This document shows positions 20,434-29,593 of a stretch of 64,000 bases of DNA, piece after piece. Every line of letters begins with the position of its first letter. Position 1 is the first letter of the stretch. Origin of the DNA: Halopiger goleimassiliensis (lineage in GTDB: Archaea; Halobacteriota; Halobacteria; Halobacteriales; Natrialbaceae); assembly GCF_000455345.1 (NCBI RefSeq), contig NZ_HG315690.1, forward strand, positions 1,377,742-1,441,741, written 5' to 3'. A model generated the notes under the pieces. The model was not told the origin of the DNA and made no database searches. It saw nothing but the letters and a program-made list of their open reading frames with translations. The position numbers were made by a program, and so were the translations under genes.

Positions 20434-22106
20434 CAGTGGGTTACCTCCGTTTCGGCGTCGTCGTCCGTATCGGTGTCGCCGGCCGGCGACTGCTCGAGGA
20501 TCGCCTCGACCAGTCCCAGGAAGGGCGGACTCGGCTGGCCCGGCCGGGACGTGTACTCGGGGTGGAACTGCGTCCCGAGGAAGTAGGGGTGGGCCTCGTG
20601 TTCGAGGATCTCCATGCGATTTCCGGCGGTGCCGGAGAAGGTCAGCGGCTCGTCCTCGAAGTGCTCGAAGTACTCGGGGTTGACCTCGTAGCGGTGCCGG
20701 TGGCGCTCCGAACACGAGGTGTCGCCGTACAGGTCGTACGCGAGCGTCTCGGGTTCGATGACGGTCGTGTGCTCGCCCAGCCGCATCGTCCCGCCCATGT
20801 CCTCGACCTCGTACTGCTCGGGCAGGATGTCGATGACGGGATGGGGCGTGTCCTCGTCCATCTCAGTGGAATGAGCGCCCTCGAGACCCAACACGTTCCG
20901 GGCGTACTCGACGACGGCCATCTGGAAGCCCAGACAGAGCCCCAGGAAGGGAACGTCGTTCTCGCGGGCGTACCGGACCGCGCGGATCTTCCCCTCGGTG
21001 CCGCGCATCCCGAAGCCGCCGGGGACGATGATCCCGTCGACGGCCTCGAGTTGGTCGTCGTACTCGTCGGCCATCCCGTCGGCGTGGACCCAGTGGACGT
21101 TCACGTCGACCCCGAGTTCGAAGCCGGCGTGTTTCAGCGACTCGTGGATCGACATGTACGCGTCCTCGAGATCGTACTTGCCGACGAGCGCGACGTCGAC
21201 CGCGCCCTCTTTCTCGGTGGTGACGATCTCGCGCCACTCGTTGGCCCGTTCGCCTTTCGGCAGGGCCTCGTCAGCCAGCCCGAAGTGCTCGAGGACGTAC
21301 TGGTCTAACCCTTCGTCCTCGACCATCAGCGGAACGTGATAGACGTCCTCGACGTCCGGGTTGGAGAACACCGCCTCGGTCGGAATGTCACAAAACAGGG
21401 CGATCTTCTCCTTGGTTTCGGGCTCGAGGCGGTCCTCACAGCGGCCGACGATGACGTCGGGCTGGAGGCCGATCGAGCGGACCTCCTTGACCGAGTGTTG
21501 CGTGGGCTTGGTCTTCTGTTCGCCGTTTTTCGAGTAGGGGACGAGCGTGACGTGAGCGAAGAGAATGTCGTCGTCGTCCTCCTCGTGGGCGAACTGTCGC
21601 AGCGCCTCGAGGTAGGGCATTCCCTCGATGTCGCCGACGGTGCCGCCGACTTCGACGATACAGACGTCGGTTCCCTCGGCGGCCTCGCGGATGCGGCGTT
21701 TGATGTCGTCGGTGACGTGGGGGATGATCTGGACCGTCTTGCCGAGGTAGTCCCCGGCGCGTTCGGCCTCGATGACGTGCTGGTAGGTCTTGCCCGTCGT
21801 GATGTTGTGGTCCGAGGTCATGTCGACGTCGAGGAACCGCTCGTAGTTCCCCAGATCGAGGTCGACCTCGCCGCCGTCTTTCAGGACGTAGACCTCGCCG
21901 TGTTGGTAGGGGTTCATCGTCCCCGCGTCGACGTTCAGGTACGGGTCGATCTTGACGGCGGTAACGTCGAACCCGGCGTTTTTCAGGAGTCGGCCGGTGC
22001 TGGCGGCCGTGATCCCCTTGCCGAGTCCCGACATGACGCCGCCGGTGACGAAGATGAACTTGTTCCCCAACGTGGGGTCATAATGGGTGTCCGAGTCCGT
22101 CGGCAT
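20433..22106 (-). CDS. pyrG: CTP synthase
   Basis: A 557-aa enzyme converting UTP to CTP with glutamine and ATP. The N-terminal amidoligase domain (about 1-275) has [20 protein letters not shown] with the P-loop, and the [22 protein letters not shown] segment. The C-terminal class I GATase domain (about 300-545) has the nucleophile Cys in [17 protein letters not shown] and [22 protein letters not shown] at the end. It is the first gene of a three-gene minus-strand operon with guaAB and a small Rossmann-like protein, all with overlapping ends. CTP and GMP synthesis share the glutamine/ATP requirement, which may explain the grouping. Confidence 0.98.
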
Positions 22107-22264
22107 ACCGAGTGTCCGCGCGACCGGTTGAAAACGATTTCGGGACCGTACCGGCTCCGACAGTCCTTGTCACTCCCGGCCGAACGCCCTCGAACCTGCC
22201 CCTTCCTCCCGCTCGCGTTCCGCGCAACGCCGCAGCACCGAATCGTTCACCTGGAGGACGACCG

Positions 22265-22272
22265 TATTTATT
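22265..22272 (+). promoter_or_regulatory. TATA box for the 22303 membrane protein
   Basis: TATTTATT, 31-38 bp ahead of the GTG at 22303, would place transcription start a few bases before that codon. This favours 22303 over in-frame codons at 22273 or 22294. Confidence 0.5.
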
Positions 22273-22302
22273 TTGTGGCCGGCGCTCGAACGTGTGCATA
22301 CT

Positions 22303-23199
22303 GTGTCATCTCACGGACGCGCACCGCCCCTCGAAGTGGACACCCCCGACATCGGCTTCCAGGCCGGCTTCGGGTTCTATCTCGGCGTCGTCGTGGTCGG
22401 CGTCGCAGCGATCGCGGGACTGGCCGCCGACGTGTCGACCGCGACGCTGCTTGGCGTGCTGCCGACCGCGCTGACGGTCGTCACGATCGCCGGCCACGTC
22501 ATCGCGAGACGAAGCCACGGTCTGCCCGAGCGGATCGGCCGCTCCCGCTGGCGACGAGCTGCCTGTTACGTGCCGCCGCTCGCGTTCGCCGTCACGTTGT
22601 TCGCTGCCACCTTCGAACTGATCGACCCCGGGACCCGGATCTACCTCGTTACGGTCGTGTTCGCCCTCCTGTCGGCCCCCGCGGCATACGGGATCGACCG
22701 CATGTCCCGCAACCGGTACGTCGAGGCGGCCACCGCCGACGAACCGGTGGCGACCTGGCAGTACCACCCGGTAGGGCTTCTCTCCGGCCGGACGTCTTTC
22801 ACCGTCGTTGTCGGTCTCCTGATCGGTCTCGGGATTCTCGGTGCCCTGCTGGGACGTCTCAGAGCGTTGTTGTGGCCGGTCTACGGCGTCGTCATGCTGG
22901 TCTCGACTCGGCTCGGCCGGCGGAACGCGGCCGACTCGAGCGGTCGATGGAACGTACCGACGCTCCGGGCACACCGGGCCGGACTGGTCGTCCAGCGACC
23001 CTTTGCGCGAACGCTCCTCCCCTGGGACGCTATCGAAGACGTCCGCCTGACCGACGACGAACTCGTCCTCGAGCGCAGACGCCGGTTCGACCTCCACTGT
23101 GATCGGGACCCAATCGACGATCCGGAGGCAGTGTGCGAGGCGATCGAACGCACCCGCGCCGGAACCGTCGACCCGATCGGTGCCTCGAGTTCCGTCTGA
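22303..23199 (+). CDS. multi-pass membrane protein with C-terminal PH-like domain
   Basis: About 298 aa. Hydrophobic segments: GFYLGVVVVGVAAIAGLAADV, LLGVLPTALTVVTIAGHVIA, AACYVPPLAFAVTLFAATFEL, IYLVTVVFALLSAPAAYGI, and SFTVVVGLLIGLGILGALLG plus LLWPVYGVVMLVSTRLG. The last 85 residues (RAHRAGLVVQRPFARTLLPWDAIEDVRLTDDELVLERR) have the strand pattern of a bacterial PH-like domain. GTG 22303 is favoured by the TATA spacing. It is divergent from pyrG and converges on the halocin-locus permease with a 33-bp gap. A part in halocin export or immunity cannot be excluded, but nothing directly supports it. Confidence 0.72.
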   Translation: MSSHGRAPPLEVDTPDIGFQAGFGFYLGVVVVGVAAIAGLAADVSTATLLGVLPTALTVVTIAGHVIARRSHGLPERIGRSRWRRAACYVPPLAFAVTLFAATFELIDPGTRIYLVTVVFALLSAPAAYGIDRMSRNRYVEAATADEPVATWQYHPVGLLSGRTSFTVVVGLLIGLGILGALLGRLRALLWPVYGVVMLVSTRLGRRNAADSSGRWNVPTLRAHRAGLVVQRPFARTLLPWDAIEDVRLTDDELVLERRRRFDLHCDRDPIDDPEAVCEAIERTRAGTVDPIGASSSV

Positions 23200-23232
23200 C
23201 CCTCCCTCTCCCTCGGCCGTGGACGACGCTCG

Positions 23233-24822
23233 TCACGCTATCTCGTATCGGCCGAATCTGTCCGTCGCGTACCGGAGCGAGAGTCCGGCCACCACGACAC
23301 AGGTCCCGAACAGCGCGATCCCACCCCACGTCCGAATCGCCTCGGTGGAGACGGACGGGACGACGATCCGGAACGCCGACGGCAAATACACGAGGAGTAA
23401 CCCACCCAGCCCGGCGACGCCGACGAGAAACGAGTAGCTCCCGATGACGCCGAGATGCGGGGTCGTGACGGTCCGACCGTCCGCCCGCGTCGATCGATGC
23501 GTCGCGGGGACCAGAGAACCGAGACCGCTGGCCACCGTCGTCGCCCAGATCGAGAGCAACGCCGTGAACCCGAGCAGCGTCGCCGTCTGCGATCCCGTGA
23601 TCGGTCCGGCGATTCCCGCCAGGCCGATCAGGAGCGACGCCGGCGGAAGCGTGACCGCCAGTCCGGCGAGCATCCGACCGAGGACGAAACAGCGCGTGGG
23701 AACGGTCGCCAGGGCGAGTTGCGAGTACATCGGTGCGCTATCGCCGATCGGATTGAGACAGAAGAGGGCACCGGCAGTCCACGCGGTCACAACCGACAGA
23801 AGCGGCGGGGCGACCAGCAGTGCGACCTCGAGCGGTTCCCCGATGAAAGAGACGACCGTCGGGAGCAACACGAAGGCAGCGACGAAGACGTGGCCCAGGC
23901 GTGCGGGGTTTCGGACGCCACGGAGCAGCTGTACCCACGCGACGTGAACCGACGGGAACCGACCGGTCGGGAGCCAGCCGCCACGGACCGACGTCGTCGA
24001 CTCGGAGTCGCTGGATCGATCGGGGAGCCACCAGACCGTGGGCGTGACCGCCCGGATCGCCCCGAGAAACGCGAGCGGAAGCCCGACCGCGACGACGATC
24101 GATCCCGCAACACGCGGGTCGAGCAGCGGCCCCGCCGACGAACCGAGAAGCGCGAGACGTGCGTACAGTGAAACCGGTGCCTCGAGGACGGACGTGGCGT
24201 CCGCGACGGCCGACGGAACCCGATCGATGGCGAGCATCGCCGCCGCGACGAGGGCTGCGACGAGAGCGTACCGAACGCGGCGGTCGATCCACCGGAGCGT
24301 CGGCGTCACGAGCAGTCCGAGGAGATAGCTACCGAGGACGCACGCGAGGAGGAACGCGGCGAGGGTCGCCCCGCCGGTGAGGACGAGCGCCGGCGAACCC
24401 GCTCCGAGAGCGAAGACGGACCAGACGGCGATCAGCGGCCCGCCCAGAACGAGCGTGACCCGAACGTACTCCGCGAGGGCCAGCCCCGTTGCGACGTCCG
24501 GCGCGGAGACCGCAAGCAGGACGAACGCCGGTTCGTCGGGATACCCCACCTCGAGGATCGTCCGAAGCACGACGAGAACGACGACGACACCGCCCAGTAC
24601 GGACAGTTGTCCGGTGAGAAGTTCGGCGAGGGGAATCGGCGACTCGCCGACGGACCACGCCCGACCGTACCGATACACGGCTCGAGCGCCGTAGTACCAC
24701 GCCGGCGTCGTGACGAGCAGGCCCGCGAACAACAGCAACAGTCGCCGTCGCTCGGCCGCCAGCCGACGGCCGCTACGGCGGAGCGCGACCGACCAGATTC
24801 GTCGGACGTGACTACTCCCCAT
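23233..24822 (-). CDS. large multi-pass membrane protein of the halocin locus (permease-like)
   Basis: A 529-aa protein that is almost entirely hydrophobic, with about 12-14 membrane segments (for example LLLLFAGLLVTTPAWYYGA near residue 30, LAAFLLACVLGSYLLGLLV, VFVAAFVLLPTVVSFIG, WGGIALFGTCVVVAGLSL near the end). A basic N-terminus (VRRIWSVALRRSGRRLAAERRR) precedes the first helix. The layout of two halves separated by a hydrophilic middle loop resembles ABC-2-type permeases, but I see no family motif. It overlaps the preceding small membrane gene by 11 bp, so the two are co-translated. Position makes it a candidate for export of, or immunity to, the halocin C8-like peptide encoded upstream. 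Confidence 0.75.
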   Translation of the reverse strand: MGSSHVRRIWSVALRRSGRRLAAERRRLLLLFAGLLVTTPAWYYGARAVYRYGRAWSVGESPIPLAELLTGQLSVLGGVVVVLVVLRTILEVGYPDEPAFVLLAVSAPDVATGLALAEYVRVTLVLGGPLIAVWSVFALGAGSPALVLTGGATLAAFLLACVLGSYLLGLLVTPTLRWIDRRVRYALVAALVAAAMLAIDRVPSAVADATSVLEAPVSLYARLALLGSSAGPLLDPRVAGSIVVAVGLPLAFLGAIRAVTPTVWWLPDRSSDSESTTSVRGGWLPTGRFPSVHVAWVQLLRGVRNPARLGHVFVAAFVLLPTVVSFIGEPLEVALLVAPPLLSVVTAWTAGALFCLNPIGDSAPMYSQLALATVPTRCFVLGRMLAGLAVTLPPASLLIGLAGIAGPITGSQTATLLGFTALLSIWATTVASGLGSLVPATHRSTRADGRTVTTPHLGVIGSYSFLVGVAGLGGLLLVYLPSAFRIVVPSVSTEAIRTWGGIALFGTCVVVAGLSLRYATDRFGRYEIA

Positions 24823-25189
24823 GCTCGTCGGAGCCGTTCAGGCCTGCGACGTCGCCGAAGACCGGTATCGAGACGACGACCCAGACGCCAGCAGCGACGA
24901 CGACCAACGCATCGCTCGTCGTGATCGGTGCGAGAACTGCCGTGAGTCCCGCCGCGAGGAGTGCTCCTAACCCCCCGCCTGCGAGGGATCGCGGCTGGTG
25001 ATCGAGTACCACCAACCCGATACCGTAACAGACGGCGGACAGGACCGCGAAGCCGGCCGCGATCCCGTTCCACGCCGACACGTCGGCGACGGAGAGACCG
25101 TACAGGACGAGTCCACAGAGGGCGAGGAGTACTCCGTTCCCGACGACGAGTTTATTCGACGTCAGTAACTCGAGGCGGCTTCGAGGCAT
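24812..25189 (-). CDS. small four-helix membrane protein of the halocin locus
   Basis: A 125-aa protein with four predicted membrane helices: VGNGVLLALCGLVLYGLSV, IAAGFAVLSAVCYGIGLVVL, GGGLGALLAAGLTAVLAPI and ALVVVAAGVWVVVSIPVFG. A short basic N-terminus (MPRSRLELLTSNKL) and an acidic tail (NGSDEHGE) flank them. It is followed by, and overlaps, the large membrane protein gene, and lies 98 bp downstream of the halocin precursor. An AAATATATTT block at about 25228-25237 on this strand suggests its own promoter. Function unknown; an accessory transport or immunity subunit is an inference from position. Confidence 0.72.
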   Translation of the reverse strand: MPRSRLELLTSNKLVVGNGVLLALCGLVLYGLSVADVSAWNGIAAGFAVLSAVCYGIGLVVLDHQPRSLAGGGLGALLAAGLTAVLAPITTSDALVVVAAGVWVVVSIPVFGDVAGLNGSDEHGE

Positions 25190-25221
25190 CCGACATCAAC
25201 CAATATTTCATTATCGGTCGG

Positions 25222-25240
25222 CGAGCAAATATATTTCGGT
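25222..25240 (-). promoter_or_regulatory. probable TATA element upstream of the halocin-locus membrane genes
   Basis: On the minus strand the block AAATATATTTG lies about 35-45 bp ahead of the ATG at 25189, within the 98-bp gap after the halocin precursor. It suggests that the two membrane genes can be transcribed separately from the precursor. Confidence 0.4.
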
Positions 25241-25287
25241 TATTGGGCTGGTGTGCTGGCTCAGCGGGGAGGACCGTTGGAACGGCG

Positions 25288-26079
25288 TCAACAGAGGCCG
25301 AGTTGCGGGTGGGAACAGATGTCTTCGGCGGGGGAATCACAGCCGATGGCCGCGATCGCCGTACAGGCGGCCTGTGTGAACGTGAAGCACGCGCCACCAG
25401 CGATAATACCGAGTCCGGAAAGGACGCCACAGATGAAGGCCGTCGACGCACCACAACCGATCTGGCAGATCTGCGTTACGGCGAGTTTACAGCCCGAACA
25501 CCCGATGTCGAACGCCGGTGCGACGGCGTCCGTCGACTCGAAGACCGACTCGTCCGCGTCGAACTGTATCTCGTGGACCGACTCCTCCATCCCGTCCAGC
25601 CCATCGACGACGCGGGCGGTGATCGTTCCTTCGACGTCGTCGACGGAGTCGACGTCCGCGGGCGATCGGTCGAAGGATTTCTCGACGTACTCGAGGGACG
25701 CGATGGTCACCCGCTGTGAATCGAGCGACCGACCGATCGTGAGGTGCGCTTCGTCGGCGTCCGCGTCCGTAATCGGAACCGAAACGAGTTCGAGTCGCTC
25801 GTCACCGGTTACCGTTCCGGCAGTGATGTCGTCGCCGAGCGAACCGCCGCGCTCGAGAACAGCCCGCTCGAGGCGCTCGAACTCGTCGGTCTCCCGGAGC
25901 CGTTCGTACAGCCGCGTCGCTTCCGCACCCGTAACTTCGTCGAACCCGGCCGGACGCTCCGCACTGACGGCGGGAACGCCGATACCGGTAAACGCAGCGG
26001 TCGCAGCGCTCATTCTGAGGACGTTTCGACGGTTGAACGACGCGTCGGCCGAATCCGCTTCGTCGTGGTGATCTGTCAT
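25288..26079 (-). CDS. halC8: halocin C8-like bacteriocin precursor
   Basis: A 263-aa precursor. Residues 1-45 hold a Tat-type signal (SFNRRNVLRMSAATAAF, ending near PAVSA). The middle (about 46-190) is an acidic, globular domain without Cys; in halocin C8 this part becomes the immunity protein. The last 73 residues start at FDIGCSGCKLA and contain ten Cys with spacing C-x2-C-x7-C-x3-C-x7-C for the first five. That agrees with halocin C8 as I recall it, as do the Gly-rich hydrophobic core and the GLC end. The mature peptide is expected to be secreted and active against other haloarchaea. ATG 26079 is chosen over a GTG at 26112 because a TATA-like sequence lies about 40 bp ahead of it. Confidence 0.93.
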   Translation of the reverse strand: MTDHHDEADSADASFNRRNVLRMSAATAAFTGIGVPAVSAERPAGFDEVTGAEATRLYERLRETDEFERLERAVLERGGSLGDDITAGTVTGDERLELVSVPITDADADEAHLTIGRSLDSQRVTIASLEYVEKSFDRSPADVDSVDDVEGTITARVVDGLDGMEESVHEIQFDADESVFESTDAVAPAFDIGCSGCKLAVTQICQIGCGASTAFICGVLSGLGIIAGGACFTFTQAACTAIAAIGCDSPAEDICSHPQLGLC

Positions 26080-26116
26080 TGGGTATCGACCCCGGGCGCG
26101 GCTACCATACACGATC

Positions 26117-26126
26117 GATTATAGTT
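26117..26126 (-). promoter_or_regulatory. TATA-like box of the halocin precursor gene
   Basis: On the minus strand AACTATAATC lies 38-47 bp ahead of the ATG at 26079, which predicts a short leader of roughly 10-20 nt. The triple 29-bp repeat lies about 70-150 bp further upstream. Confidence 0.45.
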
Positions 26127-26194
26127 ACTCGCTGATCGAATTTCACGCATCGAAACACGATTCAGCCGCTGCATCCCCTCGACGGGCCGGCTGA

Positions 26195-26278
26195 GATCGA
26201 CACCGACGGACTCGAGCGTGAGTGATCGACACCGACGGACTCGAGCGTGAGTGATCGACACCGACGGACTCGAGCGTG
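26195..26278. repeat. three tandem 29-bp repeats upstream of the halocin gene
   Basis: The unit GATCGACACCGACGGACTCG plus AGCGTG begins at 26195, 26224 and 26253, exactly 29 bp apart, and each copy contains the same 26 bases. It lies between the regulator stop and the halocin promoter. The rest of 26080-26335 contains no gene. The regular phasing, close to three helical turns, fits binding sites on one face of the DNA. Confidence 0.9.
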
Positions 26279-26335
26279 ACCGACGATGGGGGTGGAGCCA
26301 TGCAGTGGTCGAACCGTCGACCGTCGGTCGGGCGC

Positions 26336-27106
26336 TCACTGCGAAGGCTGCTCGGCGAACCGTCTGGCCGATGCCTTCTTCGACTCCGCGTACGACGCAA
26401 ACCAGCGTCGCAGTTCCTCGTTCGAACAGTCGATACAGACCCGCCCGGATCGGTCCGCGTCGTAGAGGATGGCCAGTGCGTTCCGTTCCGAAAGAACGAG
26501 CCCAATCGAAAGGTCTCCGGAATAGACGTAGAGATCGTCGGGAGCGACGGCTTTCAGCCATCGATCGGTCGTGACGTGGGATTCGAACGCCGATTCGACG
26601 ATCACGTCGACGGCGTCGTTCGCCTCGTACAGGTCCTGATGAACGTCGGTGAAGAGGGAGTTCACGATCGGATCGACGATGTAGCTCGGCTCGATCGATC
26701 GACTGGCGGCCTGTTCCCGATAGTAGAGGACGGGTGCGTGTGGCCGTTCGTCGGTTGGGACCACGATCGTACTTTCGGAAAGCGGCTGAAGCGGCGGTTC
26801 GTTTCCCGGATCGAATCGCCGAAGGACGGGTTCCGTTTCGAGGACCTGTTCGACGCGTGTGATGGCGTGGTCGTACGTCTCGAGGATTATCGCCCCCGCA
26901 GCGGTCAGATGATACTCCCCATCACGTTTCGTGATCCACCCGTGCGTCTCGAAATCGCTGAGGATTCGCTGGACGGTCGCTCGCGAAATGGAGTACCGAT
27001 CGACGAGTTCTGAGGGGGTGCTCGGCCGCTCGTCGATCGCTTCCAGGAGCAGCGGACGATTCGCAGATCGGGTCAAATACGATAACCGATCGTGGCACGA
27101 ACTCAT
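26336..27106 (-). CDS. winged-helix transcriptional regulator (DUF1724/FilR1-like)
   Basis: A 256-aa protein. The N-terminal winged helix (about 1-85) shows LLEAIDERPSTPSELVDRYSI, SRATVQRILSDFETHGWI and TKRDGEYHLTAAGAII. The C-terminal 165 residues match the pattern of haloarchaeal regulators with the DUF1724 (methanogenesis-regulator FilR1 middle) domain, with RSIEPSYIVDPIVNSLF and GLVLSERNALAILYDADRSGRV. It is on the same strand directly upstream of the halocin precursor, with three 29-bp tandem repeats between them. It is therefore a good candidate for controlling halocin expression. A minus-strand AATATATTAACC (about 27143-27154) is its likely TATA box. Confidence 0.85.
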   Translation of the reverse strand: MSSCHDRLSYLTRSANRPLLLEAIDERPSTPSELVDRYSISRATVQRILSDFETHGWITKRDGEYHLTAAGAIILETYDHAITRVEQVLETEPVLRRFDPGNEPPLQPLSESTIVVPTDERPHAPVLYYREQAASRSIEPSYIVDPIVNSLFTDVHQDLYEANDAVDVIVESAFESHVTTDRWLKAVAPDDLYVYSGDLSIGLVLSERNALAILYDADRSGRVCIDCSNEELRRWFASYAESKKASARRFAEQPSQ

Positions 27107-27248
27107 ATCTCTCGCTCTAACGGGTTTATTTTTCTAATTTTTGGTTAATATATTATGTTCCGTTGGAAGACGTATTCGTCGTGGACGGAAGCGACGACGG
27201 ATACCAGATTCACACCCCCGTGAGAGTACCCGCGAGGCCGGCTTCCCG

Positions 27249-27443
27249 TCACCCGTCCCGTGATGTCGCCCTGTCCGTCGATCGGTTGGCTCTCGAGAGG
27301 ACGAGCCACTGCGGAATCGCAAACACCAGTAACAGCACGCTCAGCAGGACGAACACTTCGAGTGCCCGGATCGCCAGACTGTAGACCAACCCGACGGCGA
27401 CGCCCGTGTAGACGGTCGCCAGCAGCCAGCCGAGTTGGTGCAT
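27249..27443 (-). CDS. small two-helix membrane protein
   Basis: A 64-aa frame with two clear hydrophobic segments, LGWLLATVYTGVAVGLVYSLAI and LEVFVLLSVLLLVFAIPQWLVL, and a basic polar tail (SRANRSTDRATSRDG). Hydrophobicity and codon use suggest a real gene rather than a shadow. It lies on the same strand ahead of the halocin regulator, with 142 bp between, so a link with the locus is possible but unproved. No family is recognised. Confidence 0.5.
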   Translation of the reverse strand: MHQLGWLLATVYTGVAVGLVYSLAIRALEVFVLLSVLLLVFAIPQWLVLSRANRSTDRATSRDG

Positions 27444-27544
27444 GCAAAACCGTTCACATTCGGAAACGATAAGATCACTGGCCAGTCCTCGCCACCGATG
27501 GTGATCGGGTCAACCGGCGATCGATAGCTGTGGACCCGGCGGTA

Positions 27545-27697
27545 TCAGGTCATGACCGAGGTCTCCTGCAACTCCCCGTCTTTGAACCGCCAGACGACCT
27601 CCTCGTCGCAGACGGTGCAGTAGGTCTCCTCGGTGTCGTAGTTGTCGCCATACGAACACGAACCACGGGGGGACGGCGAGAGCGGCAGCGAACTCAT
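27545..27697 (-). CDS. small CxxC zinc-finger-like protein
   Basis: A 50-aa protein: an Ser/Pro-rich start (MSSLPLSPSPRG), then SCSYGDNYDTEETYCTVCDEEVVWRF and a short tail. The CTVC pair and the earlier Cys suggest a metal-binding knuckle of the haloarchaeal small zinc-finger class, although only three Cys are present. The internal ATG at 27697 is preferred to 27739 because the upstream residues look non-coding. It is located 96 bp beyond the infB stop on the same strand. Confidence 0.6.
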   Translation of the reverse strand: MSSLPLSPSPRGSCSYGDNYDTEETYCTVCDEEVVWRFKDGELQETSVMT

Positions 27698-27793
27698 CGT
27701 TCGGCTCCTCGAAGGGTCAGCGAACGGGCAAACCGGCACGCTCGAGGGGCGTCGGGGGACGTCGACGGGGACGGGTGAGGGCCGGACCCTGAC

Positions 27794-29593
27794 TCACTTG
27801 CCCCAGAACGGATCGCGATTGCGCTGTTTCTCGAGGTACATGTTCAGCGCCTCGAGTTCGTCGCCGGGGATCTCGTCGGTGAGTTCCTGCTCTAAGATCT
27901 TGGCGTGTTTCTCTGGGATCTCGGTCCAGAGGCGGTCGCCCTCCTCGATGTCGCGGCCGACCGTGGGGCCGTCGATGGCGACCGAGACGCGGTCGCCGTT
28001 GCGGGCCTCGTCGATGTCCTCGCCCTGTTCCTGGATGCCCTTGATCCCGCCGACGCGTTCGGGTTCGTTACCGTCGAACTTCACGACCTGGGTGTTGTTC
28101 TGGAGGGTCCCGGCGTCGACCTCGACGCCGACGACCGCAGGGTCGTTCTGGCGGAAGGTGTGATCCGGCAGGATCCGGAACCGGGCGGGCCGGGTGATGT
28201 TCTCGAGGATGGTGTCCTGCTGGGCCTGTTCGATCTCCTCGACGAACGCCTCGTACTCCTCGACCACCTGGTAGATGACCGCATCGGTGAAGATGGTTAC
28301 GTCGTCCTGTTCGGCGCGTCGCTCGGCGTCGTCGAGCACGTCGACGTTGAACCCGAGAATGACCTGCTGTTTCGGATCGTCGGCCGTCGAGGCCACCGAG
28401 ACGTCACGTGGCGCGACGTCGCCGACCTCCGCGCGGACGATGGGGACCTCCGCTTCTTCGAGCGCGTCGGCCATCGCCTCGAGGCTCCCCAGGGTGTCGG
28501 CCTTGACGACGACGCCCTCCTCGGCGGTGTCGACGGCGATATCGGCGAGTTCGGCCCGGACCTCCGTGATGACCTCCTCGAGGTCGCGGTCGCGGACGAC
28601 ACGGACCGGCGCGCCGGCCATCGCCTCGTCCAACTCGGGCGCGGCGACCTTGATCCCGGCCGCTGCGCTGACCTCGTCGACTTTCTCGAACCGGCTCTCG
28701 GTGCGGATCTCCTCGAGCGGCCGGGGCTGGAGCAGCGCGCGGACGTCGGTGACGATCGGGTCGTTCTGCCCGCCGACCACGATCTTGTCGTCGGCCCGGA
28801 TCGTCCCGTCGTAGAGGACGATGTCGATCGTCGTCCCGAAGCCCTTCTCCTCTTTGACCTCGAGGACGGTGCCGACCCCCGGTCCCTGGACGTCGATCTC
28901 CATCTCCTCTTTCATGTACCGCTGGGACAGCCCCATCATCACCGCCAGCAGGTCCGGCACGCCCTCGCCGGTCATCGCGGAGACGGGGACGACGCCGACG
29001 TTGCGCTGGAAGTTCTGGACGCGCCAGTAGAGGTCGGCGGAGAAGCCCTCGTCCGAGAGGTTGCCGATGATCTCGTACAGTTGCTCGTCGAGGCGGGAGG
29101 TGACGCGATCGGACTGTCGCTCGTAGGTGTCGTTGATCGGCGAGTTCTCGTTGGCGTCCCACCCTGGCACGGTATCGATCTTGTTCGCGGCGACGATGAA
29201 GGGCGTCTGGGAACGTTTGAGAATGTCGAGCGCCTCGAGCGTCTGGGGCTGGAAGCCGTCGTTGACGTCGACGACGAGGATGGCGATGTCCGCGAGAGCA
29301 CCCCCGCGAGAGCGAAGCGTGGTAAAGGAGTGGTGTCCCGGCGTGTCGATAAAGAGCAGGCCGGGCAGGTCGAAGTCGTCCGGATCGACCAGATCACCCG
29401 CGATCGAGGAGACGACGTCTAGCGGGACGGCCGTAGCGCCGATGTGCTGGGTGATAGCGCCTGCTTCGCCCTCGATCACCGCTGAGCCACGGATCTTGTC
29501 GAGGAGACTCGTCTTCCCGTGATCGACGTGTCCGAGGACGGCGACGATCGGGGTCCTGAGAGATGTGGGGTCGCGCGTATCGGTATCCGACAT
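27794..29593 (-). CDS. infB: translation initiation factor IF-2 (aIF5B)
   Basis: A 599-aa GTPase that promotes ribosomal subunit joining. G-motifs: VLGHVDHGKTSLLDKI (G1) at about 18-33, the ITQHIGAT switch I segment, DTPGHHSF (G3) and AANKID (G4). Domains II-IV follow, with VEVDAGTLQNNTQVVKF and the archaeal/eukaryotic C-terminal helix ending in LEKQRNRDPFWGK. The length of about 600 is normal for archaeal aIF5B, which lacks the long N-terminal extension of eukaryotes. A minus-strand GTTTAACTA at about 29638-29646 is the likely TATA box. Confidence 0.97.
   Translation of the reverse strand: MSDTDTRDPTSLRTPIVAVLGHVDHGKTSLLDKIRGSAVIEGEAGAITQHIGATAVPLDVVSSIAGDLVDPDDFDLPGLLFIDTPGHHSFTTLRSRGGALADIAILVVDVNDGFQPQTLEALDILKRSQTPFIVAANKIDTVPGWDANENSPINDTYERQSDRVTSRLDEQLYEIIGNLSDEGFSADLYWRVQNFQRNVGVVPVSAMTGEGVPDLLAVMMGLSQRYMKEEMEIDVQGPGVGTVLEVKEEKGFGTTIDIVLYDGTIRADDKIVVGGQNDPIVTDVRALLQPRPLEEIRTESRFEKVDEVSAAAGIKVAAPELDEAMAGAPVRVVRDRDLEEVITEVRAELADIAVDTAEEGVVVKADTLGSLEAMADALEEAEVPIVRAEVGDVAPRDVSVASTADDPKQQVILGFNVDVLDDAERRAEQDDVTIFTDAVIYQVVEEYEAFVEEIEQAQQDTILENITRPARFRILPDHTFRQNDPAVVGVEVDAGTLQNNTQVVKFDGNEPERVGGIKGIQEQGEDIDEARNGDRVSVAIDGPTVGRDIEEGDRLWTEIPEKHAKILEQELTDEIPGDELEALNMYLEKQRNRDPFWGK

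Follow-up and report, generated by a model that had tools for sequence, protein, structure and literature searches.

A probable halocin C8-type precursor in a conserved four-gene cassette of Halopiger goleimassiliensis

Halocin C8 is described as one gene that supplies both the toxin and the immunity to it. To go by the title of a 2005 study by Sun et al., its immunity reportedly derives from this one gene. The precursor, pro-C8, has a published length of 283 aa, and Tat-dependent export is reported for halocin C8 (PMC11509114). The maturation protease of HalC8 has been described as unidentified (PMC12893001). Our search of the open literature, which most subscription papers lie outside, found no paper describing a permease beside halC8. 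The cassette described here makes protection by membrane transport testable.

The DNA that we analysed (the window) comprises 64,000 nucleotides of contig NZ_HG315690.1 from Halopiger goleimassiliensis. An earlier note on this DNA had read one of its genes as a halocin C8-like precursor. This reading is supported by our analysis, but the note had missed the conserved neighbour genes. The cassette contains, in this order, a FilR1-family regulator, the precursor, a small protein with four transmembrane segments (4-TM) and a 12-TM ABC-2-like permease. Its features are the following.

26336..27106, minus strand: regulator, FilR1/HVO_A0261-family winged-helix protein, 256 aa (PF25213, 90.1 bits; PF08350, 32.8 bits)
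26123-26118, minus strand: TATA-like box TATAAT, 38 nt 5' of the precursor ATG (comparison with L090-L093)
25288..26079, minus strand: pro-halocin C8-like precursor gene, 263 aa, from the ATG at 26079 to the last base of the stop codon at 25288; putative Tat-type signal at residues ~1-40, HalI-like domain at ~41-190, ten-Cys halocin peptide at ~191-263
25510..25959, minus strand: HalI-like (immunity) domain, acidic and Cys-free (profile-profile comparison with the canonical HalI region; AlphaFold2 secondary structure)
25288..25509, minus strand: predicted mature halocin, residues 191-263, with ten Cys; cleavage site placed by alignment only
25227..25233, minus strand: TATA-like box TATATTT, 37 nt 5' of the ATG of the 4-TM protein (comparison with L090/L091)
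24812..25189, minus strand: 4-TM membrane protein, 125 aa (hydropathy; homologues at the matching place in L090-L093)
23233..24822, minus strand: 12-TM ABC-2-like permease, 529 aa (hydropathy; Foldseek; relatives beside ABC ATPases)

The ATG at 26079 is favoured over an in-frame GTG at 26112 because of the TATA-like box 38 nt upstream and because the relatives are alike: similar boxes precede the precursor start in four of them (L090-L093). The GTG lies too near the box and was ruled out. The second TATA-like box stands before the two membrane genes, which may therefore be expressed independently of the precursor. A perfect 29-bp tandem repeat (26195-26279, 2.9 copies) lies between the halocin promoter and the regulator gene; the corresponding region of L090-L093 does not show it. 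The repeat may have expanded recently by slippage, or it may serve as an array of operators.

The precursor matches TIGR04449, the NCBIfam model of the halocin C8 domain, over 69 of 69 model positions with 50.6 bits (cut-off 24, E 2.9e-13), and by this score the match is not due to chance. The match to PF22862 (Hac8_like_N) is weak, with 22.1 bits and a cut-off of 27, and the equivalog model for halocin C8 precursor-like proteins, NF040679, gives 17.5 bits where 200 are required. As canonical control we used Natrinema altunense AJ2 (L054/L094), in which the precursor frame reads 283 aa. BLASTP aligns the two proteins over nearly their whole length with 32% identity (E 6e-25), so the divergence from halocin C8 that had been noticed before is real. 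The Cys alignment proposed earlier as a check places all ten positions in register with this precursor, and the ten columns are invariant in our alignments A1 and A2. The N-domains are also related when compared on their own (BLASTP E 3e-6; profile-profile E 5.3e-10, probability 96.6%). This homology to the HalI region supports the proposal that a putative immunity domain and the halocin share one precursor.

Taken together, the alignment with the canonical protein, the ten Cys and the N-domain homology, along with a score short of the NF040679 cut-off, argue that the gene very probably encodes a divergent halocin C8-type precursor. Since it already falls within a public family model, we regard it, on sequence grounds, as a diverged representative of an established family and not as a new kind of system. 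The halocin C8-like identity is borne out by the relatives that were found with the TIGR04449 profile, the whole-genome family search and the alignment. That its target range differs from that of halocin C8 is speculation. The divergent core does provide a second natural sequence for mapping the residues by which halocin and HalI recognize each other.

The architecture is the same as in halocin C8, with a putative Tat-type signal, an acidic Cys-free domain and a C-terminal ten-Cys peptide. An RR pair is present at residues 17-18 (FNRRNVLRM), as expected from the Tat signal noted before, and is invariant in the alignment, although the match to TAT_signal (PF10518) is weak (16.6 bits, cut-off 22.7). 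There is no Cys in residues 1-190 and the net charge of the middle domain is -26, in agreement with the acidic, Cys-free middle that the earlier note had described. In the AlphaFold2 model of the precursor, residues 51-76, which stand at the N terminus of the HalI-like domain, are predicted to form a helix-loop-helix, and beta strands come after it. A helix-loop-helix motif is reportedly essential for HalI immunity, judging by the title of a 2008 study by Mei et al. The ten Cys fall within residues 194-263 with the spacing 2-7-3-7-13-7-7-7-7, which includes the C-x2-C-x7-C-x3-C-x7-C start reported earlier. The first six spacings (2-7-3-7-13-7) are identical to those of halocin C8, whereas the last are 7-7-7 here and 8-8-5 in the canonical peptide. 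For the 73 residues from D191 with five disulfides we computed a mass of ~7.06 kDa, which corrects the earlier 7.3 kDa. Foldseek with the precursor model returned nothing significant, and neither the precursor profile nor the permease profile matched any PDB sequence beyond chance level.

We could find the same gene order at four other loci: Natrinema mahii H13 (L090), Natrinema pallidum DSM 3751 (L091), Halostella pelagica DL-M4 (L092) and Haladaptatus sp. DYF46 (L093). The precursors of these uncharacterised cassettes are 43-67% identical to that of the window, and regulator orthologues stand at the matching place in all of them. The Cys spacing is the same in Natrinema and Halostella; in Haladaptatus, the core contains an additional Cys. 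In Natrinema the cassette occupies the infB-pyrG site as it does in the window. The Halostella pelagica cassette abuts pyrG, with no infB match, and neither pyrG nor infB was found near the Haladaptatus cassette. A further window-type cassette (L079, 7515-8400) is decayed: the precursor frame is broken and one core Cys is changed to Trp, the 4-TM protein is intact and the permease was not detected.

The canonical C8 clusters likewise have a homologous FilR1-family regulator and an ABC-2-like permease near halC8, but they differ from the window cassette in several respects. The membrane genes lie downstream of the precursor in the window cassette and upstream of it in canonical C8. The 4-TM protein was not recognised in the canonical clusters. 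Conversely, the window cassette has no MacB-like ATPase/FtsX pair, which in the canonical loci is found upstream of the permease.

In relatives (other Natrialbaceae) without a halocin at this site, all four genes are missing between infB and ph308/pyrG. In the relatives' loci L129-L148, compared with 22106-27794 of the window, the pyrG-infB interval holds ph308 only, nothing, or other ORFs that by eye appear glycosyltransferase-like or acyltransferase-like. The site is thus variable, lacking the cassette in some genomes and carrying unrelated ORFs in others. We ruled out ph308 as a member of the cassette, as it is kept beside pyrG without the cassette. A bPH_6-domain protein (22312-23199, plus strand) is convergent with the cassette and is kept beside pyrG in halocin-less relatives. 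On the other side, a 64-aa protein without a Pfam family (27249-27443, minus strand) adjoins infB and is shared by several relatives, with 44-57% identity to counterparts in L131, L132 and L142.

The 4-TM gene overlaps the start of the permease gene by a few bases, and the two are likely translationally coupled. No Pfam family was found for the permease, and AlphaFold2 modelled it with low confidence (pLDDT 60.5). Foldseek ranked a mycobacterial efflux pump first, with chains of NosY, CcmABCD, PmtCD and Wzm-Wzt lower. Like the tandem ABC-2-type efflux permeases (8k1n-8k1p and haloarchaeal relatives), the protein is of double length with ~12 TM (Foldseek probability 1.00); however, the TM-scores are only ~0.33 on a low-confidence model, and the cassette has no ATPase. 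Of 381 genomes, 289 have a member of the wider permease family. The paralogue in the source genome and each of ten further family members that we examined have an ABC ATPase gene nearby, always of one type. No ABC ATPase was found in the cassette, nor does any ORF of at least 150 aa in the whole window contain the motif GxxGxGK[ST]. As the relatives stand beside an ATPase and the cassette copies do not, we read the permease as a former ABC exporter half. It may use an ATPase in trans or work without one. The family is found near a halocin at all five intact window-type loci, at all six canonical-C8 loci and at two others, of ~58 loci.

Going by its homology with halocin C8, the precursor would be exported via the Tat pathway and cleaved near residue 190. 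The released ten-Cys peptide of ~7.06 kDa, probably with five disulfides, would kill or inhibit other haloarchaea, and the released HalI-type middle domain would neutralise it for the producer. No protease gene was found in the cassette, and seven loci for S8 peptidases occur in the source genome. Judged by gene context alone, the upstream FilR1-family regulator may control expression. The 4-TM protein and the permease are probably co-expressed from their own promoter; as far as gene context goes, this pair would most likely clear the peptide from the membrane with an ATPase encoded elsewhere. Transport in trans is assumed here because there is no adjacent ATPase.

We considered whether producers might rely on more than single-gene immunity, a question that our analysis adds together with the conserved cassette itself. 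A homologous permease beside canonical halC8 bears on the question of protection by membrane transport. We tentatively take the membrane pair for a second immunity layer, while giving this somewhat less than even weight. With the same reserve, it is possible that halocin C8-type systems have a dedicated second immunity arm in general: an ABC-2-like permease (here with a 4-TM partner) that borrows its ATPase from the cell, moves together with the toxin in one cassette and, once the toxin is gone, can persist as an orphan resistance locus. One such locus may be contig 41 of a Natrinema pallidum genome (G034; L179, 4597-10086). The ATPase, FtsX, permease and small protein, all of canonical type, have been kept there, but all that remains of halC8 is a 237-nt fragment covering residues 84-162; no match to the canonical regulator was found. 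A transporter kept after toxin loss fits a resistance role, but this is a single case, and the deletion may simply be recent. Nor is the permease spared whenever a cassette decays: that of L079 went undetected next to an intact 4-TM gene. Given the one-gene immunity reported for halocin C8, a second layer would also not be required. The same pair might instead serve export or maturation of the peptide. Its conservation beside the precursor and its membership of an ABC-2-like transporter family would suit this role too. Nevertheless, we consider it rather unlikely: an RR signal is already present in the precursor, Tat export has been reported for halocin C8 (PMC11509114), the transporter genes of the G034 remnant persist although the precursor gene there is no longer intact, and most other halocin C8-like loci have no permease.

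Two further explanations concern the precursor itself. Many diverged TIGR04449 proteins, this subfamily included, are putative halocins, and halocin H4 of Haloferax mediterranei has been linked to DNA uptake (PMC6759562), so the protein might act in self-signalling or have another envelope function instead of being a toxin. This seems very improbable to us, as the ten Cys line up with those of a proven antibiotic, the core shares its reading frame with a conserved immunity-type domain, and the patchy distribution and decayed copies resemble those of a competition gene. We give hardly any more credit, indeed marginally less, to a decayed or silent copy without present function. The precursor does differ by 33% from the closest relative found, and decayed copies of the family exist elsewhere (L079, L179); here, however, all four frames of the cassette are intact, the ten Cys and the RR are kept, and the TATA-like boxes are in place. 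A halocin C8-type toxin precursor with built-in immunity thus remains our preferred reading of the gene.

A whole-genome family search found the TIGR04449 domain in 43 of 391 Halobacteria genomes, with one copy in the source genome. Nearly all cores whose spacing could be read begin with the same C-x2-C-x7-C-x3-C-x7-C arrangement, which the search pattern partly preselects. The best relatives of the precursor are from Natrinema (67% identity), Halostella (56%) and Haladaptatus (43%). When 49 precursors were placed in a tree, the window protein grouped with those of Natrinema pallidum and N. mahii (99/91). These three form a clade of six (100/100) with the precursors of Halostella and Haladaptatus and the decayed copy of G191, and this clade stands apart from that of canonical C8; support for the deeper branching order is weak. 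A single-sequence scan of genome contigs returned no relative, and an alignment-based scan returned seven. Plasmid-borne relatives are distant (25%). A distant halocin C8-like protein with 26% identity to the window protein is encoded on plasmid NZ_EU080936.1 (131984-132736) of Halobacterium sp. GN101, a strain that is listed as the producer of halocin R1 (PMC11509114).
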